64,000 nt of DNA from Salinivibrio sharmensis. GTDB lineage: Bacteria > Pseudomonadota > Gammaproteobacteria > Enterobacterales > Vibrionaceae. Below, piece by piece: positions 1 to 9,320 of the stretch. The notes beneath the pieces were generated by a model that did not search any database, had not been told where the DNA came from, and was given only the letters and a program-made list of their open reading frames with translations. The stretch spans positions 59,693-123,692 of the forward strand of contig NZ_MUFC01000009.1 of assembly GCF_001995985.1 (NCBI RefSeq), read 5' to 3'. How positions within the stretch are numbered: position 1 is the stretch's first letter; every line of letters starts with the position of its first letter. A program made the translations under genes and the position numbers.

Positions 1-42
1 TAATTTTTTTTGTACAATTTTGATCTATCTTCTACGCTTAGT

Positions 43-66
43 TGTACAACATATTATAAATGTACA
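43..66 (+). promoter_or_regulatory. LitR/CarH-type MerR operator (TGTACA-N12-TGTACA)
   Basis: Two TGTACA hexamers separated by exactly 12 bp lie 42 bp upstream of the first gene of the photolyase operon; a third copy (TTGTACAA) sits at 10-17. The AT-rich spacer carries possible -10 hexamers TATTAT (52-57) and TATAAA (55-60), so bound protein would cover the promoter. From memory, light-responsive LitR-family MerR regulators of Pseudomonas bind T(G/A)TACA-N12-TGTA(C/T)A. The second gene of the operon encodes such a regulator, so autoregulation is inferred. Confidence 0.7.
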
Positions 67-107
67 ACTCCGTAGCAAATGCTGCGCGGTCAGTGTAGAG
101 GTGAGAC

Positions 108-1061
108 ATGTCATTCCCTGTAGGTGTTAGCGCCTGTGTTATTGGCGAAAAAGTGCGATTTGACAGTGGTCATAAACGTAGCCCATTTGTCACCAAAGAG
201 TTGGCACCGTATGTAGATTTTGTGCCAGTGTGCCCCGAAGTCGGAATTGGGCTCCCAGTGCCGCGCCCCGCCATTCGCTTGGTCGACAAAGGAGATTTGT
301 CGGTCAGGTTAGTCGAAACCAAAGATCAACAAAAAGACTACACGGACAAAATGCAGGCGTTCAGTGAGCAAAAAGCGGAAGAGCTGGCGCACAAAGCACT
401 GCGTGGCTATATAGTCTGTGCCAAGTCACCGACTTGTGGCATGGAGCGGGTAAAAGTCTACCGCGAGAATGGTTACGCCTCAGATATTTCCGGGGTAGGG
501 CTTTACACTCAGGCACTGATGGCGCGCATGCCTTGGTTGCCTGTTGAAGAAGATGGCCGGCTTAACGATCCTATTCTCAAAGAGAACTTTGTTTTTCGGC
601 TGTTTGCGCTTGATGATCTTTACAAGAGTGTCGAGCAAGGGGTGACTAAGAAAGCCCTCGTTGATTTCCACTCACGCTATAAGTTGGTACTGATGGCGCA
701 TTCGCCCGAAAAATACCGTGAACTTGGGCGATTTATGGCCAACATTGGCCATTACGATCTGGATCGCTTTTTCGAGCAGTACCGCACCGCGTTTATGCAA
801 GCCATTGCCATTCGTGCGACGCGTAAAAAACACACCAACGTGTTAATGCACCTGCAAGGCTATTTTAAAAACAACCTCGATAAACATCAGAAAGCTGAGT
901 TAGCGAATCTTATCCATGCGTATCGTCAGGGCACCATGCCTTTATTAGCACCGCTGACGTTGATTTCGCATCATCTTCATAATCACCCCGATGAGTACTT
1001 AGCTAACCAAGCTTATCTCAAGCCTTATCCTGATGCGCTGAGGCTTCGCTATGGCCTATAA
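108..1061 (+). CDS. DUF523 + YbgA (DUF1722) fusion protein
   Basis: The 317-residue protein has two parts. The N-terminal DUF523 part (about 1-150) carries conserved cysteines in CPEVGIGLPVPRP and CAKSPTCGME. The C-terminal YbgA/DUF1722 part (about 180-315) has the MAHSPEKYRELGR and LLAPLTLI stretches. Biochemical function is unknown; the family is widely linked to photolyase genes. It is the first gene of the operon, preceded by a GAGGTGAG ribosome-binding site and by the TGTACA operator. Its 3' end overlaps the MerR gene by 11 bp, so the two are probably translationally coupled. A role in the light or photo-oxidative response is inferred from context only. Confidence 0.9.
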   Translation: MSFPVGVSACVIGEKVRFDSGHKRSPFVTKELAPYVDFVPVCPEVGIGLPVPRPAIRLVDKGDLSVRLVETKDQQKDYTDKMQAFSEQKAEELAHKALRGYIVCAKSPTCGMERVKVYRENGYASDISGVGLYTQALMARMPWLPVEEDGRLNDPILKENFVFRLFALDDLYKSVEQGVTKKALVDFHSRYKLVLMAHSPEKYRELGRFMANIGHYDLDRFFEQYRTAFMQAIAIRATRKKHTNVLMHLQGYFKNNLDKHQKAELANLIHAYRQGTMPLLAPLTLISHHLHNHPDEYLANQAYLKPYPDALRLRYGL

Positions 1062-1881
1062 GACACCTCACACTCTGACTATCAGCCAAGTGGCTGAGCA
1101 GACAGGTGTTAACCCTGTCACGCTGCGCGCATGGCAACGGCGCTATGGATTGCTTTCACCGGAGAGAACGGCAAAAGGGCACCGGCTTTATCGCCAGGAA
1201 GATGTAGAGACTATCGCTCATATTCTCCAGTGGTTAGATAAGGGGGTGCCGATCAGCAAGGTTAAACCTCTGCTTGCTCACAGTCCTACGGCGGCCGACA
1301 CGGAAGACGACAGCGTGGCACGTGAACTGATTGACTGTATTCATACATTCTCAGTCAAACGGCTCGGGAAAGTCCTAGACATGATTTTAAAAGAGTATCC
1401 CTTTTATTGGTTAGTTGAACATGCCTTTACACCGGTCGACCAATGGTTAGGTGACGAGGAGGAAGCGGTTCGTTTATTACAGCGCGATCTGTGGCATAGC
1501 GCTGTGATTGAGCGATGCCGAACGGCGCTGGCGGCAAATGCCAAACGACATGCCCAGTCTCGATGCTGGCTTGTCTCATTAACTGTCACCAATGAATACC
1601 AACGCGTGCTTATGGCGATGGCACTCAACGATAAGGGTTACAGTGTCACAATATTGTCCAGTCCGCATCAACAATTGAATTTGGTCGTTGAGGTGATGCG
1701 CGAGCAGGGGGTGACAACATTGGCCTTGATGGCTAATCGTCGTCTCGATCGCGCCCAAATCAATCAAGTACGCCTTTGTCTTGCTCAAAATGACATTGAC
1801 GTTGTGAGCCAAGCTTTTATCTGCTCCGTACACGGTGATGAGCTCGAAGAACTTAAGGAGAACAAAACGTTATGCATCTAG
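1051..1881 (+). CDS. MerR-family regulator, LitR/CarH-like, without a cobalamin site
   Basis: This 276-residue protein begins with a MerR winged-helix domain (LTISQVAEQTGVNPVTLRAW, then RRYGLLSP), typical of CarA/CarH/LitR regulators of light-induced genes. The C-terminal half aligns by eye with the cobalamin-binding fold: a helical segment, then a Rossmann-like part (WLVSLTVTNEYQRVLMAMAL). The ExHxxG-type B12 motif is absent; the His and Gly positions read Gln and Leu. Direct AdoCbl light sensing is therefore unlikely, and a partner such as a LOV protein may be needed, as described for Pseudomonas. It overlaps both neighbours and probably represses its own operon through the TGTACA sites. 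Confidence 0.85.
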   Translation: MAYKTPHTLTISQVAEQTGVNPVTLRAWQRRYGLLSPERTAKGHRLYRQEDVETIAHILQWLDKGVPISKVKPLLAHSPTAADTEDDSVARELIDCIHTFSVKRLGKVLDMILKEYPFYWLVEHAFTPVDQWLGDEEEAVRLLQRDLWHSAVIERCRTALAANAKRHAQSRCWLVSLTVTNEYQRVLMAMALNDKGYSVTILSSPHQQLNLVVEVMREQGVTTLALMANRRLDRAQINQVRLCLAQNDIDVVSQAFICSVHGDELEELKENKTLCI

Positions 1882-3314
1882 TCTGGTTTCGGCGCGATTT
1901 ACGTGGGCTGGATAACCGAGCGTTGAGCGCAGCCAGCGACGCGTCCGATCCCGTGGTCGGGATATTTGTTGAGACACCGGAACAGTGGGCGTCACACCAG
2001 CTTGCCCCCAAACAAGCGGGCCTTATCAAAGCTCGGCTAGAGGCGTTACGTGAAGAGCTTAGTGCGCGAAATATTCCCTTAGTGGTTGAGCGTGCAGCTG
2101 ATTTTCCTCAATCGGCGGAAAAAGTGGCGGATTATGCCCACCGCATTGGTGCAACAGCGGTGTTTGCTAACAAGGAATATGAACTTAATGAAAGCAAACG
2201 TGATGAACAAGTGTGCGCAGCGTTAGCAAACAAAGGCATCGCATGGTATGCCTATGATGACCGCAATTTGTTTGCACCAGGCACCATAAAATCGGGAAAA
2301 GGCGAACCGTATAAGGTGTTCACGCCCTTCAAAAAAGCCTGTCTACGTGCTTTAGACGGCATGGATGTTTCACCCTGCCAAAAACCATCCAAACGCGAGA
2401 CAAACGCGGCTATCGACACGATCTTTTCACAGCTAAAACCGATTCACTTTGATTATCCGACTGAGGATGTCTCGGACTGGGCGACCGATGAGACAGGGAT
2501 CCTCGAGCACATGCGTCGTTACTGCCGCGAGCAAGTGGCTGATTATAAAAGACAGCGTGACTTTCCCGCGGTTGATGCCACCAGTCAGCTTTCTCCTTAT
2601 TTGGCCATTGGCGCGTTATCTCCACGTCAATGCTTGGCGCGTTTACAAGAAGAGCAAGCCGATTGGCGCGAGCCCGATACAGGGGCAGCTACCTGGCTTT
2701 CGGAACTTATTTGGCGTGATTTCTATCAGGAAGTGAGTGCACAAAATCCGGCAATCAGCAAAAAGTATAGCTTTATAGCTTGGGGCGAATCAGTGGTATG
2801 GGATAACGACCCTTCCTTGTTTGAGGCTTGGAAGACGGGAAAAACCGGTTTTCCCATTGTTGATGCCGCGATGCACCAGCTTAATCAAACAGGCTGGATG
2901 CATAACCGATTGAGAATGATTGTGGCCAGCTTTTTGACTAAAGATCTGCTTATCGATTGGCGCTGGGGAGAAGACTACTTTATGTCCAAGCTGATTGATG
3001 GCGATTTTGCCTCTAACAACGGGGGCTGGCAATGGTCTGCGTCGGTAGGGACCGATGCTCAACCTTACTTTCGGATCTTTAATCCGACCACACAGGGAGA
3101 GCGGTTTGATAGTGATGGGCGCTTTATTCGTCGCTGGCTCCCCGCGCTTAAACAGGTGCCGGGCAAGCATATTCACCAGCCTTGGCAATGGGCGGATCAA
3201 TACGCCCAAGCGCTAGATTATCCGCGTCCGGTGGTGGATCACGCCACTCAGCGCAAAAAGGCGCTGGCCATTTTTGAAGCGGCGAAGAATCAGCCGCAGG
3301 AGCAAACACCATGA
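1872..3314 (+). CDS. phrB: Deoxyribodipyrimidine photolyase
   Basis: The 480-residue protein repairs cyclobutane pyrimidine dimers using blue light and FADH-. It has the N-terminal antenna-binding alpha/beta domain (LVWFRRDLRGLDNRAL) and the C-terminal FAD-binding helical domain with WLSELIWRDFY, GFPIVDAAM, GWMHNRLRM and DWRWGEDYF. The signature continues with DGDFASNNGGWQW and RIFNPTTQGERFD. This is standard class I CPD photolyase length and motif content rather than cryptochrome-DASH. The start overlaps the MerR gene by 10 bp, and the stop overlaps the next start as ATGA. Confidence 0.97.
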   Translation: MHLVWFRRDLRGLDNRALSAASDASDPVVGIFVETPEQWASHQLAPKQAGLIKARLEALREELSARNIPLVVERAADFPQSAEKVADYAHRIGATAVFANKEYELNESKRDEQVCAALANKGIAWYAYDDRNLFAPGTIKSGKGEPYKVFTPFKKACLRALDGMDVSPCQKPSKRETNAAIDTIFSQLKPIHFDYPTEDVSDWATDETGILEHMRRYCREQVADYKRQRDFPAVDATSQLSPYLAIGALSPRQCLARLQEEQADWREPDTGAATWLSELIWRDFYQEVSAQNPAISKKYSFIAWGESVVWDNDPSLFEAWKTGKTGFPIVDAAMHQLNQTGWMHNRLRMIVASFLTKDLLIDWRWGEDYFMSKLIDGDFASNNGGWQWSASVGTDAQPYFRIFNPTTQGERFDSDGRFIRRWLPALKQVPGKHIHQPWQWADQYAQALDYPRPVVDHATQRKKALAIFEAAKNQPQEQTP

Positions 3315-3751
3315 CTCGTTCGCCAACCCATGCTGGTGTGTCACAGTTTGTGACGACCTATCAAGCGCTCAATAAAGATAACTTGTCATCACTGGCGACG
3401 ATTTATCACCCCAAGATTGTGTTTGTCGACCCAGCGCATGAGATAACCGGCTTAGAGGCGTTTATCCAGTATTTTTCGCTGCTGTACGAAAACGTAACAG
3501 ATTGTCAATTTCATATACACACGACCGCGGTAGACGGAGACGATGCCTTTGTGACCTGGACCATGATGTTATCGCACCCCAAGTTGGATGGGGGGAAAAC
3601 GCGACAAGTTCAGGGCTGCTCTCACCTACGTTTTTATGACGGCAAAATCATTCGGCATCGTGATTACTTCGACTTAGGTGAAATGCTGTACGAAGCGCTA
3701 CCTGTGATAGGTCGCCTGCTCAAACATATCAAAACGAGGCTAGGACAATGA
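3311..3751 (+). CDS. NTF2-like (SnoaL-type) domain protein
   Basis: A 146-residue single-domain protein with the cone-shaped NTF2/SnoaL fold pattern: an N-terminal helix (VTTYQALNKDNLSSLATIYH), then FVDPAHEITGLEAFIQYF, then beta strands ending in HLRFYDGKIIRHRDYFDLG. Such proteins bind small hydrophobic molecules, or act as isomerases or hydrolases; no catalytic assignment can be made from sequence. It is joined by 4-bp ATGA overlaps to photolyase and SDR, and it is a regular member of photolyase/Cfa-type clusters. A role in processing an oxidised lipid is speculation from context. Confidence 0.85.
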   Translation: MTRSPTHAGVSQFVTTYQALNKDNLSSLATIYHPKIVFVDPAHEITGLEAFIQYFSLLYENVTDCQFHIHTTAVDGDDAFVTWTMMLSHPKLDGGKTRQVQGCSHLRFYDGKIIRHRDYFDLGEMLYEALPVIGRLLKHIKTRLGQ

Positions 3752-4473
3752 AACACGTATTGATCACCGGCGCCACGTCGGGAATTGGTGAGCAATTGGC
3801 AAGAGACTATGCGCGTCAAGGTTGGCAGGTGACAGCCTGTGGGCGAAACCAAGACAAGCTTAACGCCATGGCTAGCGATCACGCATCATTAGACGCATTG
3901 GCGTTTGATGCCACAGATGGCGAACAAACGCATCAAGCGCTGAGTAACTTAAGCGTCTTTCCCGATTTGATTATTCTAAATGCGGGAACGTGTGAATACA
4001 TCGACCATGGCGAAATCGATGTGGCGCTGTTTAAACGCGTTTTTGATATTAACGTTTTTGGCGTACTGAACTGTATTGAAGCGTTGCAAGCAAAATTCAC
4101 TGACAACACCCACCTTGCCATTGTCGGCTCGTCGGCCAGTTATATGCCGTTGCCACGCGCGGAGGCATACGGAGGATCGAAGGCGGCGATCAGCTACATC
4201 GCCAACACGCTATCTGCTGACTTGGCACACCGAGGGGTGACGGTGTCACTTATTTCACCGGGGTTTGTAAAGACACCATTAACCGACCAAAACGACTTTT
4301 CGATGCCAATGCGCATTACGGTGGAGCAAGCCTCTGCCGCTATTCAAAACGGGTTGGCTAAAGGGAAAACGGAAATCCATTTTCCGCGAAAATTTACCTT
4401 TATTCTCAAGTTTCTCGCGCTATTGCCTATGTCCTGGCAGCGAGCCCTCGCACGACGTATGACAAGGAACTAA
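3748..4473 (+). CDS. Short-chain dehydrogenase/reductase (SDR)
   Basis: A 241-residue classical SDR. It has the NAD(P)-binding TGATSGIGEQ at the N terminus, NAG in LILNAGTCEY, the catalytic Ser in IVGSSASYMPLP and the YGGSK Tyr-Lys pair, followed by the SPGFVKTPLT segment. ATGA overlap with the preceding gene and a 3-bp gap to the next indicate one transcript. The substrate is unknown. In this operon of fatty-acyl modifying enzymes a lipid-derived carbonyl or alcohol is a reasonable guess, but nothing in the sequence proves it. Confidence 0.93.
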   Translation: MKHVLITGATSGIGEQLARDYARQGWQVTACGRNQDKLNAMASDHASLDALAFDATDGEQTHQALSNLSVFPDLIILNAGTCEYIDHGEIDVALFKRVFDINVFGVLNCIEALQAKFTDNTHLAIVGSSASYMPLPRAEAYGGSKAAISYIANTLSADLAHRGVTVSLISPGFVKTPLTDQNDFSMPMRITVEQASAAIQNGLAKGKTEIHFPRKFTFILKFLALLPMSWQRALARRMTRN

Positions 4474-4476
4474 ATC

Positions 4477-5736
4477 ATGAAAATTGCCATCATCGGCTCA
4501 GGCATTGCCGGTTTGACGTGTGCTCATTATCTCAATAAACAGCATGACATCACCTTGTTTGAAGCGAATGATTATTTGGGGGGCCATACGGCCACGGTCG
4601 ATGTCGACGTCGCCAGTGGACAGTACGCGATTGATACCGGCTTTATCGTTTTTAACGATCGTACCTACCCGAATTATGAACGTTTACTCAACGAAATTGG
4701 TGTGGGTCGCCAACCTTCTCAAATGAGCTTTAGTGTTCGCAATGATGCGAATGGACTGGAGTATAACGGGCATAGCCTGTCCTCGTTATTTGCGCAGAAA
4801 CGCAATGTTATTAATGTGCGCTTCTACCGCTTTTTGGCGGAGATCATGCGATTCAATCGCCTCGCTCGTGAAGCACATGCCGCGGGTGAGGCCGAGCGGC
4901 AAGGCGCACTCAACACCCTGGGCGATTTTCTCAATCAACATGGGTTCAGTGATTATTTTTGTCAAAACTATATTCTTCCCATGGGCGCGGCGATTTGGTC
5001 ATCCACCTTGTCGGATATGCGTGGTTTTCCCTTGTCGTTCTTTCTGCGTTTTTTCCAAAATCACGGCCTGTTGGATATCACTAATCGGCCGCAATGGTAT
5101 GTGATCCCCGGAGGCTCACGTGAGTACGTTAAAAAGCTCACGCCTGCCTTCGAGGATAAAATTCATCTCAACTCACCGGTAAAAAGCGTGCGCCGAACGC
5201 CGGAGGCAGTGTTCGTCACCACCGACACGAGTGAGCATCAGTTTGATCAAGTGATATTCGCTTGTCATAGCGATCAGGCGCTCTCTATGCTGGCCGATCC
5301 CAGTGAAGCGGAACAACAGGTGCTTGGGGCGATCCCTTATCAAGACAATGAGGTCGTGCTTCACACTGACACGTCGCTGTTGCCTAAGCGTCAAGGCGCG
5401 TGGGCAAGTTGGAACTATCATTTACCGTTGTCAGATAAAATAGACACAGAACCAGCCGCTTTGACCTACAATATGAATATATTGCAGTCAATTCAGGCGC
5501 CTGAGACATTTTGTGTGACGCTAAATCAAACCGACAGGATCGAGCCGAGTAAAATTCTTAAGCAATTTGTCTATGCTCACCCCGTGTTTAATACCGAGAG
5601 TGTGGCAGCGCAACAACAGCGCCACCGCGTCAATGGTAAGCACCGGAGTTGGTTCTGCGGCGCGTATTGGTACAACGGCTTTCACGAAGATGGTGTACGC
5701 AGTGCGCTTGACGTAGTGGAGGGAATTAAAGCGTGA
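4477..5736 (+). CDS. FAD-dependent oxidoreductase of the amine-oxidase family
   Basis: The 419-residue protein opens with a dinucleotide-binding motif (IIGSGIAGLTCAHYL, acidic Glu in LFEAND, then LGGHT) and continues with DTGFIVFNDRTYPNY, typical of the amine-oxidase-like proteins encoded beside DUF1365 and Cfa-like genes. It ends with WFCGAYWYNGFHEDGVRSAL. In plants the equivalent domain is fused in front of the cyclopropane fatty-acid synthase domain, and in alpha-proteobacteria related clusters are linked to furan or cyclopropane fatty-acid synthesis. A role as an acyl-chain dehydrogenase or oxidase is likely but unproven. The GTG start of the next gene overlaps its stop. Confidence 0.9.
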   Translation: MKIAIIGSGIAGLTCAHYLNKQHDITLFEANDYLGGHTATVDVDVASGQYAIDTGFIVFNDRTYPNYERLLNEIGVGRQPSQMSFSVRNDANGLEYNGHSLSSLFAQKRNVINVRFYRFLAEIMRFNRLAREAHAAGEAERQGALNTLGDFLNQHGFSDYFCQNYILPMGAAIWSSTLSDMRGFPLSFFLRFFQNHGLLDITNRPQWYVIPGGSREYVKKLTPAFEDKIHLNSPVKSVRRTPEAVFVTTDTSEHQFDQVIFACHSDQALSMLADPSEAEQQVLGAIPYQDNEVVLHTDTSLLPKRQGAWASWNYHLPLSDKIDTEPAALTYNMNILQSIQAPETFCVTLNQTDRIEPSKILKQFVYAHPVFNTESVAAQQQRHRVNGKHRSWFCGAYWYNGFHEDGVRSALDVVEGIKA

Positions 5737-6479
5737 GTGCGTCGACACCGTCACTGAATAGCGGCTTATATGTGGGGCAAGTGCGGCATCGGCGCTTTAG
5801 CCCGATAAAACACACGTTTAATTACCCTGTGTTCATGCCCGTGATTGATCTCGATGAACTGGATCAGTTGGCGTTCAATGTTAAGGGCTTTCGCTTGGGT
5901 AAATGGGGATTAGCGGCATTCGATCACCGCGACTATCTCAATGGTCAAAAAGATACCAAAGCGGCGTGCTTTGACAAGCTCGAGGAATTAACCGGAGAGC
6001 GTATCGAAGGAAAAGTGTACGCACTGTGCCAATTACGCTATTTGGGCGTGTATTTTAGCCCAGCTAATTTCTATTACCTATACGACCAAGCCCATAACTG
6101 GCGTTACTTATTAGCCGAAGTGAGTAATACCCCGTGGGGTGAACGGCATTATTATGCCGTGCCGGCGGGCCAAAGGTATGAACACGAAAAAGCATTTCAT
6201 GTTTCGCCTTTTAACCCGATAGAGCAACGCTACCACTGGCGTCTGCGCCCTTTGGGGGAGCGAGTGCATCTTCACCTTGAGGCTCATCGACAGCAAAAAG
6301 AGTTTGACGCCACACTAGGGCTTCAACGACGCCCATTTACATCAAAAACACTGAATAAGTTATTGATCCGGACGCCGATGGAGACAGTAAAAGTTCTCAT
6401 TGGTATTTATTGGCAAGCGCTCAAACTTTGGATAAAGGGCGCACCGTTTTATCCGCACCCGAGTGCGAAGAAGGAGTAA
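5733..6479 (+). CDS. DUF1365 family protein
   Basis: A 248-residue protein of the DUF1365 family, recognised by GLYVGQVRHRRFSPIKHTFNY, the RLGKWGLAAFDHRDYLNG region, LRYLGVYFSPANFYYLYD and EVSNTPWGERHYYAVP. Function is unknown; the family is nearly always next to an FAD amine-oxidase-like gene and a Cfa-like gene, and all three parts are combined in plant cyclopropane synthases. Translation starts at GTG overlapping the previous stop as GTGA, suggesting coupling. It acts presumably on or with the acyl substrate of its neighbours. Confidence 0.88.
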   Translation: MSASTPSLNSGLYVGQVRHRRFSPIKHTFNYPVFMPVIDLDELDQLAFNVKGFRLGKWGLAAFDHRDYLNGQKDTKAACFDKLEELTGERIEGKVYALCQLRYLGVYFSPANFYYLYDQAHNWRYLLAEVSNTPWGERHYYAVPAGQRYEHEKAFHVSPFNPIEQRYHWRLRPLGERVHLHLEAHRQQKEFDATLGLQRRPFTSKTLNKLLIRTPMETVKVLIGIYWQALKLWIKGAPFYPHPSAKKE

Positions 6480-6481
6480 TT

Positions 6482-7723
6482 ATGTCTGCAACGGACGTCC
6501 CTCAGAGTCAACGCACACTGACACGTAAAGAGCACTATGCGAAACAATTGGTGTATACGTTGCTGGCGCACGTAAAAGACGCCTGCATTTCATTGGTGGA
6601 TGAACAGGGCCAAACCCTGCAGTGCGGTGATCCACAGGCAAAATTACACGCATCCGTGCTGGTACACGACCCACGCTTTTACACCAGGATTTTAACAGGC
6701 GGCAGTATCGCGGCGGCGGAGGCTTACATCGACGGCTGGTGGGAGTCTCCAAACTTAACGGATGTGATACGCGTTTTTGCCCGCAACCTGCCCGCTATCG
6801 ACAGAATTGAAAAGCACACTGGCTGGCTGGTGGGACTAGGGAACAAGCTTGCTCACTGGCGCAATCGCAATGAAAAAGAGACCGCGCGCCGCAATATCGC
6901 AGCACATTATGACCTCGGCAACGACTTGTACCGTCATTTTCTTGATGAGCAAATGCTGTATTCCAGTGCTATTTACACTGACAAAGAAATGACCCTAGAG
7001 CAGGCCCAAGTGGAAAAGATGGACCGGCTCTGCCGGCAGCTTTCGCTGACCTCTAACGATCATTTGCTCGAGATTGGCACGGGCTGGGGAGGCATGGCGG
7101 TCTACGCGGCTAAGCATTACGGTTGCCGCGTGACCACCACCACGATTTCACAAGAGCAATATGCTTGGGCAAAAGCCTGTGTCGAGCGAGAAGGGTTGGA
7201 AGATAAGATCACGCTGCTACAAAAAGACTACCGCGATCTGACCGGTGAATACGATAAACTGGTATCGATTGAAATGATTGAAGCGGTGGGGAAAGAGTAC
7301 TTGGACACTTTTGTGCGTCAATGTCAGGCCTTGCTTAAGCCTGATGGTTTGATGGCTATCCAAGCGATCACCATTGCTGATCAGCGTTACGAACACTACA
7401 GCCGGAACGTCGACTTTATCCAAAAGCATATTTTCCCCGGAGGATTCTTACCTTCAGTGAGTGTGTTGTTGTCTCACCTCACCGCTCAAACTGATTTTGT
7501 GATCAGAGACTTAAAAGACATCGGCTTGGATTACGCACAAACGCTGGCTGACTGGCACACACGCTTCAATCAGCAGACGGAGGTACTGCGTGATTACGGC
7601 TATGACGAACGTTTTGCACGTCTGTGGCGCTACTACTTTTGTTATTGCGAGGGAGGCTTTAAGGAACGAACCATCAGTGCCGTACAGCTACTCCTGAGTC
7701 GCCCCGCTTGGCGAGAGGCATAA
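6482..7723 (+). CDS. cfa: Cyclopropane-fatty-acyl-phospholipid synthase-like SAM methyltransferase
   Basis: The start is the ATG at 6482, placed by the AAGGAG at 6471, giving 413 residues; a longer in-frame start lies inside DUF1365. It has the AdoMet motif LLEIGTGWGGMAVYA and the Cfa-type regions NIAAHYDLGNDLYRHFLD, KYIFPGG-like KHIFPGGFLPS and WRYYFCYCEGGF. Compared with E. coli Cfa as I recall it, the active-site Cys is Ser (LYSSAIY) and the bicarbonate-site His is Gln (IQAIT), while the Glu in SIEMIEAVG is kept. This is the paralogue type shared with plant cyclopropane synthases. It probably methylates or methylenates unsaturated acyl chains of membrane phospholipids. Confidence 0.9.
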   Translation: MSATDVPQSQRTLTRKEHYAKQLVYTLLAHVKDACISLVDEQGQTLQCGDPQAKLHASVLVHDPRFYTRILTGGSIAAAEAYIDGWWESPNLTDVIRVFARNLPAIDRIEKHTGWLVGLGNKLAHWRNRNEKETARRNIAAHYDLGNDLYRHFLDEQMLYSSAIYTDKEMTLEQAQVEKMDRLCRQLSLTSNDHLLEIGTGWGGMAVYAAKHYGCRVTTTTISQEQYAWAKACVEREGLEDKITLLQKDYRDLTGEYDKLVSIEMIEAVGKEYLDTFVRQCQALLKPDGLMAIQAITIADQRYEHYSRNVDFIQKHIFPGGFLPSVSVLLSHLTAQTDFVIRDLKDIGLDYAQTLADWHTRFNQQTEVLRDYGYDERFARLWRYYFCYCEGGFKERTISAVQLLLSRPAWREA

Positions 7724-7726
7724 TTC

Positions 7727-8245
7727 GTGCGCTTTGTCGTTATTTCTTTATTGTTCAATGTTTACTGGTTTTCGGCGGCGCTCGGTCCGCCGAGCTTTCA
7801 GTGGTTGATGGTCGCGATGTTGCTGGGCGCGATCCTTTATGACCGCAGCGTGATGTGGGCAATGGCCGTACTCACGCCTGTTGGGTTAATTGGAGATAGC
7901 CTATTACTTCACACACAGTGGTTGGCAGTTGAGGCCGAGTACGTTGTGATGCCGCTGTGGCTACTATTACTGTGGCTAGGGTTTTGCAGTTTTGCCTGGT
8001 TAATGCGTGATCTGATCCTCGCACGAGCATTATGGTTTATGGCGGCGCTGGGCAGTTTCGGAGGCGCGAGCAGTTACTGGGCAGGAGAGCGTTTAGGGGT
8101 ATTAAGCTTCCCACAATCAATATGGGTCACTGGTGCGGTGCTGATTGGGACGTGGTTAGTATACAGCATCGTCCTAATTAACCTGATGCAATGGCTGCAA
8201 CACCAATTAGATGTCCGTTCTGCCGCGACAAGGAGAGAGCCATGA
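7727..8245 (+). CDS. DUF2878 family inner-membrane protein
   Basis: A 172-residue, very hydrophobic protein with about five predicted membrane spans (for example MVAMLLGAILYD, VMPLWLLLLWLGFCSFAWL, LWFMAALGSFGGASSYW and WVTGAVLIGTWLVYSIVL). It fits DUF2878, a family found with Cfa and photolyase clusters. The start is GTG, three bases after the cfa stop; no better ATG is available. Its stop overlaps the next gene as ATGA. Function is unknown; the position suggests a membrane partner of the lipid-modifying enzymes. Confidence 0.8.
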   Translation: MRFVVISLLFNVYWFSAALGPPSFQWLMVAMLLGAILYDRSVMWAMAVLTPVGLIGDSLLLHTQWLAVEAEYVVMPLWLLLLWLGFCSFAWLMRDLILARALWFMAALGSFGGASSYWAGERLGVLSFPQSIWVTGAVLIGTWLVYSIVLINLMQWLQHQLDVRSAATRREP

Positions 8246-8775
8246 AAAAGTGGATGAAACACCTTGTATTAATGCTCTCTCTTGCAACGCCTTACGCCAC
8301 CATGGGGACGACGTCGCCGTCAATGAAATGGCAAAGCTGGCCACAGGTTGGGGAAGCAACGTTAACCTGGGGCTGGTGGACCATTTATCAATCATCATTA
8401 CGCTCGCCATCGGGCCACTATCAACCGCAATCGCCTCATGCTTTAGTCATTACCTATGCGCGTGATATCAGTGACCAACGACTGATGAAAGCGACTCAGG
8501 ATCAGTGGGAGCATCTCGGCTTTCCTAGCGCTCAGCGAGCACGTTGGGAAAAAGCGCTAGACAAAGCGTGGGGGGATATTAAAGAAGGTGACCGTTTGGC
8601 ATTCGTGCGCCACGCACAAAAAGGGGTATTTTACGCCCAGCCAAAAGAGAAAGACTGGGAAGAGACCTTGACGGTCAAGGACATCGAGTTGGCAGATGCA
8701 TTTCTCGCAATCTGGTTATCAGAAGACACTGACTATCCAGACCATCGTCGAGCATTATTAGGAGAAACGCCATGA
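8242..8775 (+). CDS. Secreted chalcone-isomerase-like domain protein
   Basis: The start at 8242 is supported by GGAGAG just upstream and an ATGA overlap, giving 177 residues. A signal peptide is visible (MKKWMKHLVLMLSLATPYATM), so the mature protein is periplasmic. The rest fits the bacterial chalcone-isomerase-like domain: VGEATLTWGWWTIYQSSL, the ALVITYARDIS strand, WEKALDKAWGDIKEGDRLAF and KGVFYAQ. In plants this fold also includes fatty-acid-binding proteins, so lipid binding is a reasonable inference here. It lies between a membrane protein and a lipoprotein gene in the light-response operon. Confidence 0.85.
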   Translation: MKKWMKHLVLMLSLATPYATMGTTSPSMKWQSWPQVGEATLTWGWWTIYQSSLRSPSGHYQPQSPHALVITYARDISDQRLMKATQDQWEHLGFPSAQRARWEKALDKAWGDIKEGDRLAFVRHAQKGVFYAQPKEKDWEETLTVKDIELADAFLAIWLSEDTDYPDHRRALLGETP

Positions 8776-9320
8776 GACAAGTGACGCAGACGATAGGCAA
8801 AATTCTAACGGTATTGGTGAGTGCTGTGCTATTGGCAGCGTGCTCGGCAGACATTGAGGATTACCAAGGTCAGAAGCCTGATTTTAACTTGTTTGAGTAC
8901 TTTGAAGGGCAAACCAAAGCGTGGGGGATGGTACAAGATTTCACCGGTGAGCAAACCCGACGCTTCGTTGTCGATATCGAAGGTGTGGTAGAAGGGGATA
9001 CATTAACGCTGGATGAGTCCTTTGTGTATGCCGATGGCGAAACACAAACTCGAGTGTGGACGATTAAACGTCACCCTGATGGGACTTACACGGGGACGGC
9101 TGGCGATATCGTCGGAACCGCAACAGGTATTGTGGCGGGTAATGCGCTTAATTGGCGCTATGATTTGGTGGTTCCTGTCGGCGATAGCGAATATCAGCTT
9201 CACTTCGACGACTGGATGTTTCGCCAAGACCAAGATCGCCTTTTTAACGTCACCTCAATGCGCAAGTGGGGAATCGAAGTAGGCAAAGTCACGCTTTTCT
9301 TTGAGCGGGTGGCGCAATAG
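8772..9320 (+). CDS. DUF3833 family lipoprotein
   Basis: A 182-residue lipoprotein with a type II signal peptide and lipobox LLAAC at about residue 24. The remainder is the DUF3833 domain: FNLFEYFEGQTKAWGMVQD, FVVDIEGVVEGDTLTLDE and DDWMFRQDQDRLFNVTSM. It looks like a lipocalin-like beta-rich protein, though the function is not established. It is the last gene of the operon, overlapping its neighbour by ATGA, and is followed by convergent ybjD. The C-terminal trio of membrane, periplasmic and lipoprotein products points to an envelope function. Confidence 0.9.
   Translation: MRQVTQTIGKILTVLVSAVLLAACSADIEDYQGQKPDFNLFEYFEGQTKAWGMVQDFTGEQTRRFVVDIEGVVEGDTLTLDESFVYADGETQTRVWTIKRHPDGTYTGTAGDIVGTATGIVAGNALNWRYDLVVPVGDSEYQLHFDDWMFRQDQDRLFNVTSMRKWGIEVGKVTLFFERVAQ

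Follow-up and report, generated by a model that had tools for sequence, protein, structure and literature searches.

A putative LitR double operator with a nested sigma-E-like element upstream of a rudS-litR-photolyase-lipid operon in Salinivibrio sharmensis

The intergenic region upstream of rudS, in which the 64,000-nucleotide window from Salinivibrio sharmensis analysed here begins, carries two TGTACA-N12-TGTACA modules with the sequence TGATC between them. We consider it probable that this array is the double operator of an autoregulated LitR repressor, with a sigma-E input nested at the promoter. This explanation is built on the sequence and the conservation of the array, its phasing, its co-occurrence with litR and the predicted fold of the regulator, from which we infer binding, repression, release by light and the use of the promoter by sigma-E. 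The assignment of the array to LitR in particular is strongly suggested, because the motif equals a published operator, the protein has a predicted CarH/LitR-like fold and relatives without LitR have no paired operator.

Each TGTACA-N12-TGTACA module would probably hold one LitR dimer, and the two modules, 50 bp apart, would bracket the promoter. By analogy with PmlR2 of Pseudomonas mendocina we propose that LitR represses the operon and itself: in the dark or unstressed state it would shut off the expression of RudS, LitR, photolyase and lipid genes, its own gene included, until a light or photo-oxidation signal releases it. That light or photo-oxidative stress is the signal appears likely from experiments in Vibrio cholerae. 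In Salinivibrio and in ChrR-bearing relatives with fused lipid genes the same DNA would also carry the -35 element TGATC of the singlet-oxygen sigma factor sigma-E, and the third LitR half-site would be placed where the -10 of this sigma factor is expected.

Layout of the array and the operon behind it

The sequence-only reading had placed a TGTACA-N12-TGTACA site at 43-66. This site matches the motif with zero mismatches (half-sites 43-48 and 61-66), and the exact motif was found in none of 100 dinucleotide shuffles of the window. The same reading had reported a third site, TTGTACAA at 10-17. It is present and contains a TGTACA half-site at 11-16, but it is one half of a second module, the left TGTACA of which was missed: reading the genome leftward, this fourth half-site lies outside the window edge, at -7 to -2 (contig positions C40:59685-59690). 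Because the edge cuts off the fourth TGTACA, the array is counted here as two modules (-7 to 16 and 43 to 66), which start exactly 50 bp apart and give half-site steps of 18/32/18. A single N inside module 1, one base left of the window (C40:59692), reads A or C in sister genomes.

Bare TGTACA is no more frequent in the window than expected (11 observed versus 13 expected); therefore the significance of the array lies in its spacing and its position. The missing enrichment could also speak for a chance occurrence without function. However, with no exact match in the shuffles and with the array kept in all eight Salinivibrio genomes and across genera, we reject a chance match and regard its probability as practically negligible. 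A genome scan for TGTACA-N12-TGTACA, as proposed with the first reading, returned the pair of modules upstream of rudS and, in the 3.33-Mb genome, only one further exact match, within the hemW coding sequence. A wider LitR regulon in this genome was considered and dropped, the remaining paired sites (the hemW interior and the recA SOS-box region) being judged chance.

The eleven genes downstream of the array (108-9320) overlap or abut, which is consistent with the operon containing a MerR regulator and a photolyase that had been called from the sequence (Table 1). By their predicted functions the gene content is that of repair of light damage to DNA, tRNA and membranes. The UfaO domain DUF1365 is also known from a Rhodobacter operon studied in a chrR mutant background (PMC7380195). 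The divergent neighbour (C40:57278-59521) encodes a GGDEF-EAL protein (cyclic-di-GMP) and starts about 160 bp away from the array.

Table 1. Predicted features of the array and of the operon, in window coordinates
Feature	Position	Strand	Basis or remark
Putative LitR operator module 1	1..16; left half-site outside (-7..-2), right half-site 11-16	.	kept in 8/8 Salinivibrio
Possible sigma-70-like promoter, TTGTAC (10-15, half-site 2)-17 nt-TACGCT (33-38)	10..38	+	weak match, inference
TGATC, candidate -35 of ChrR-controlled sigma-E (ECF11)	21..25	+	17 nt to TGTA 43-46
Putative LitR operator module 2	43..66; half-sites 43-48, 61-66	.	exact motif, kept in 8/8 Salinivibrio
rudS: TudS (DUF523) + DUF1722 fusion, tRNA 4-thiouridine desulfidase family	108..1061	+	Pfam; RudS family PMC11417400
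litR: MerR-family, CarH-like fold, no B12 ligand motifs; presumed repressor	1051..1881	+	Pfam, fold
phrB: DNA photolyase	1872..3314	+	NF007955, 644 bits vs cut-off 506
SnoaL-like protein	3311..3751	+	Pfam
SDR oxidoreductase	3748..4473	+	Pfam and further profile matches
FAD-dependent oxidoreductase, amine-oxidase fold	4477..5736	+	Pfam; UfaD-like by gene context (PMC7380195)
DUF1365 protein, family of UfaO (furan fatty acid synthesis)	5733..6479	+	Pfam; PMC7380195
CFA/UfaM-type fatty acid methyltransferase	6482..7723	+	Pfam and further profile matches
DUF2878 membrane protein	7727..8245	+	Pfam
Chalcone-isomerase-like protein	8242..8775	+	Chalcone_3, slightly under Pfam cut-off
DUF3833 lipoprotein-like protein, last operon gene	8772..9320	+	profile match

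Conservation of the array and its co-occurrence with litR

The array upstream of rudS has the same layout in the eight Salinivibrio genomes examined (8/8). In the alignment of these genomes the half-site columns and the TGATC between the modules are 100% invariant, compared with only 9% of the columns of the upstream 150 bp; the LitR protein is 95% identical to that of S. siamensis. The two-module layout recurs in Vibrio, Photobacterium, Grimontia, Enterovibrio and Veronia and is found in most Vibrionaceae with litR. Grimontia and Enterovibrio have the 18/32/18 spacing as well; in Photobacterium it is 17/32/18 and 17/31/18, and Vibrio sensu stricto has 17/30/17 or 17/31/17. A Pseudomonas fontis promoter has an 18/32/18 array with two mismatches, and its sequence includes TTGACT-N16-TATGAT, the -35/-10 reported for P. 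mendocina P6650.

In the LitR of Vibrio sensu stricto GVKPVTLRAWQRRYN/S replaces GVNPVTLRAWQRRYG, and the operator, about 17/30/17, tolerates TATACA/TGTATA. This residue change and the tolerant operator possibly represent a covariation of protein and operator. In Photobacterium sp. SKA34 and in P. lucens rudS and litR lie farther apart (about 3.9 kb in SKA34), and additional TGTACA pairs are located in this gap or upstream.

Six genomes without LitR, four of Vibrio and two of another Vibrionaceae genus, have the lipid genes directly behind rpoE-chrR; in the four Vibrio genomes RudS and phrB are encoded there as well. At these six rpoE-chrR-lipid loci no TRTACA-N10-13-TGTAYA pairs were found. 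The LitR-less relatives look as though regulator and operator had been exchanged together, as one unit. Outside the Vibrionaceae, most loci that lack litR have a sigma-E-like site, and their promoters carry no TGTACA; TRTACA elements are seen at several loci with litR. One locus, L234, has half-sites and no litR nearby. In Vibrio sensu stricto the lipid operon is located elsewhere and has its own run of TGTACA-type half-sites just upstream in 12/12 genomes (one mismatch allowed, commonly 16/28/17). Upstream of this separate operon TGATC-N16/17-CGTAW is present in ten of the twelve genomes, with CGTAC in the other two. In Erwinia rhapontici an MlrA-like MerR gene immediately precedes the same SnoaL-SDR-FAD lipid genes, and in a Pantoea sp. 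such a gene precedes part of them; the scanned region of both loci contains no TGTACA pairs.

Because TGTACA is a simple palindrome and the binding of LitR to the array is predicted, another regulator could be considered, e.g. a different MerR-family protein or one of the CrtJ/PpsR type. However, at E <= 1e-20 the genome encodes this one LitR-like protein alone, and the operator tracks litR across the relatives, so that a different regulator seems very improbable to us. Together with the predicted CarH/LitR fold, this tracking also agrees with the original description of the site as LitR-type. The CrtJ/PpsR site TGT-N12-ACA was rejected as a candidate: its orientation does not match, and the TGT at 43-45 is followed 12 nt later by AAA.

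The TGATC element and the promoter

The sequence-only reading had missed the sigma-E -35-like element between the modules. This TGATC is invariant in Salinivibrio and lies 22 nt from half-site 3. The sigma-E promoter consensus of V. cholerae is TGATC-N16-18-CGTAW (PMC5241685), and the distance of 17 nt to TGTA at 43-46 falls within the spacer of 16-18 nt that follows the -35 TGATC in ECF11 sigma-E promoters. This TGTA, the candidate non-canonical -10, is at the same time the start of half-site 3. In place of the -10 CGTA(W) the TGATC-bearing operons listed have TGTA, and therefore we do not call the promoter a canonical sigma-E promoter. ChrR is encoded in the Salinivibrio genome in a chrR-rpoE pair, and a canonical TGATC-N16/17-CGTA precedes rpoE-chrR and also the LON-domain gene next to it. 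The chrR-rpoE pair and the -35-like element lend further support to the control by photo-oxidation that the sequence-only reading had suggested for the operon.

In 32 distinct inter-module sequences the distance of TGATC to half-site 3 is 22 nt (28 sequences) or 23 nt (four sequences), while that to half-site 2 varies from 7 to 14 nt. Because of the fixed distance of 22/23 nt, TGATC is phased with half-site 3 like a -35 with its -10. The element occurs in 34 of 53 ChrR-positive and in none of 14 ChrR-negative genomes; the 19 ChrR-positive genomes without it are mostly Vibrio and some Photobacterium. It is found in 17/26 lipid-linked operons versus 2/29 short operons, counted after removal of one edge artefact. 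Fisher p-values for the association are overstated, because related genomes are not phylogenetically independent. Photobacterium carnosum, which is ChrR-less, and P. kishitanii have TGATT at this position. From these comparisons TGATC is probably a sigma-E input, the -10 of which is merged with a LitR half-site.

Alternatively, the array could be a LitR operator only, which controls a promoter of the sigma-70 type (TTGTAC-N17-TACGCT or similar), with TGATC being incidental or having another role, e.g. as Dam GATC. The non-canonical sigma-E -10 in the Salinivibrio array would fit this, as would the published P6650 promoter, which is a sigma-70 promoter (PMC9758184), and the fact that in the majority of short Vibrio operons this array lacks TGATC and shows an extended -10, e.g. 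TGCTATAA, at the aligned place. A scan of the Salinivibrio promoter region for consensus sigma-70 promoters found nothing. However, TGATC is genus-invariant, is phased to half-site 3 and not to half-site 2, has the right spacing for a sigma-E -35, is absent from all ChrR-less genomes (14/14) and is replaced by TGATT in one of these, P. carnosum, as also in P. kishitanii. We regard a pure LitR operator with a sigma-70 promoter as possible but doubtful.

In the preferred reading, a LitR double operator with a nested sigma-E input, half-site 3 may be read by two systems, so that sigma-E would fire only once singlet oxygen has freed it and LitR is gone. For this specific arrangement we would claim somewhat less than an even chance. 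If true, half-site 3 would be a built-in two-signal gate. Its cost would be a weakened -10, TGTA for CGTA, which is kept in several Vibrionaceae genera and was not found where chrR is absent.

The regulator and its relation to known systems

The N-terminal MerR helix-turn-helix (HTH) of LitR (Pfam MerR_1) is closest to CarH/LitR, with 3whp and 5c8d (Thermus LitR and CarH) as best PDB matches, and is also MlrA-like. An AlphaFold2 model from 51 sequences (mean pLDDT 88) consists of the HTH, a helical bundle and a Rossmann-like C-terminal domain. In a Foldseek search with this model the top 13 matches were full-length CarH (E down to 7.5e-11); TM-scores of about 0.4 and a high rmsd are consistent with a differing domain arrangement. 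Among close relatives the recognition region TGVNPVTLRAWQRRYGLL hardly varies, which fits an operator common to them. In a tree calculated without class reference sequences, Salinivibrio LitR forms a long branch without a resolved place among Vibrionaceae LitR.

The overall fold and the HTH are thus common to Salinivibrio LitR and CarH/LitR of Thermus thermophilus (5c8d, 5c8e, 3whp). However, there is no Pfam match to a B12-binding domain, and in a profile alignment the CarH columns W-x9-EH and E-x-H-x-x-G (ExHxxG) are not conserved. Direct AdoB12 photosensing by LitR is therefore unlikely, and a class I LitR (AdoB12 photosensor) was rejected. No BLUF domain protein, as in a BluF/BluR-type partnership, was found in the genome. 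The sole exact match to the LOV motif NCRFLQ, a search which a divergent LOV could escape, is a 1594-aa multi-PAS hybrid histidine kinase. This kinase (C4:50310-55094) sits behind an EAL response regulator, and the locus is possibly a separate blue-light system.

The missing B12 motifs, the lack of a BLUF protein, the LOV match in a hybrid kinase and not in a short LOV protein, and the resemblance of the HTH to MlrA would also agree with an operon that is not light-regulated and a LitR that answers another signal, as its MerR relative MlrA does in enterobacteria. However, the operon genes are those of photo-damage repair and the orthologues in V. cholerae are part of its response to blue light (PMC5241685), so that we consider this unlikely.

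Already known are the operator type, the LitR family, the links of the operon to light and singlet oxygen and, from V. cholerae, the joint role of MerR and ChrR. We found no description in the literature of a Vibrionaceae LitR operator, of its two-module layout or of a sigma-E -35 within it, which is weak evidence since most subscription journals were not covered. The functions of class IV (Vibrio-type) LitR were called unknown in 2022 (PMC9758184). The array provides a concrete candidate operator for the MerR/LitR regulator across the Vibrionaceae, and it shows how the LitR and ChrR/sigma-E inputs may meet on one promoter.

Salinivibrio shares with class II LitR of Pseudomonas, which acts at promoters of light-induced genes, the operator, two modules flanking the promoter, the MerR HTH and a degenerate B12 domain; class II LitR is reported not to need B12 (PMC9758184). 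The operator of PmlR2 of P. mendocina is T(G/A)TACA-N12-TGTA(C/T)A (PMC9758184), two copies of which are found at the Salinivibrio promoter, and PplR1 of P. putida is reported there to bind the same consensus. The P. mendocina promoter P6650 has two TGTACA-N12-TGTACA sites, over the -35 and downstream of +1; PmlR2 protects both and keeps transcription repressed until it is displaced by a LOV protein activated by light (PMC9758184). The 12-bp spacing, for which the sequence-only reading had named a Pseudomonas LitR operator as the match, is thus borne out by the PmlR2/PplR1 consensus and by the P6650 sites. According to the same source the PplR regulon includes pplR1, phrB and ufaM. Salinivibrio LitR is about 30% identical to the Pseudomonas LitR proteins with which it was compared. 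Unlike Pseudomonas class II, Salinivibrio has TGATC between the modules and a spacing of 18/32/18, and by exact NCRFLQ match no short LOV partner was found in its genome.

In Shewanella oneidensis the same ybgA-phrB-...-cfa operon (SO_3386-3374) is predicted to be RpoE2-ChrR/sigma-E dependent (PMC4336711). Its promoter there, TGATCCTTGTACAAGAATGGTCCGTAAT, also includes the TTGTACAA half-site; unlike in Salinivibrio, the half-site is located within the spacer and the -10 is the canonical CGTAAT instead of TGTA. No mention of a LitR operator for SO_3386-3374 was found in this source.

In V. cholerae the MerR-like VCA0056 and the phr gene VCA0057 represent the same family and the same merR-phr neighbourhood as in Salinivibrio. 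The MerR-like regulator and ChrR are together required for the blue-light response, the chrR merR double knockout is blue-light blind and, among the genes examined, MerR, phr and VCA0058 are highly up-regulated in the chrR mutant (PMC5241685). The operon of V. metoecus and V. mimicus, which are close to V. cholerae, differs from that of Salinivibrio in having no TGATC at its promoter and no lipid genes. The V. cholerae study described no MerR operator and left open whether MerR and ChrR share a pathway and what the DNA target of MerR is (PMC5241685). With the array as a candidate, this MerR-ChrR question becomes testable by a reporter with few point mutations.
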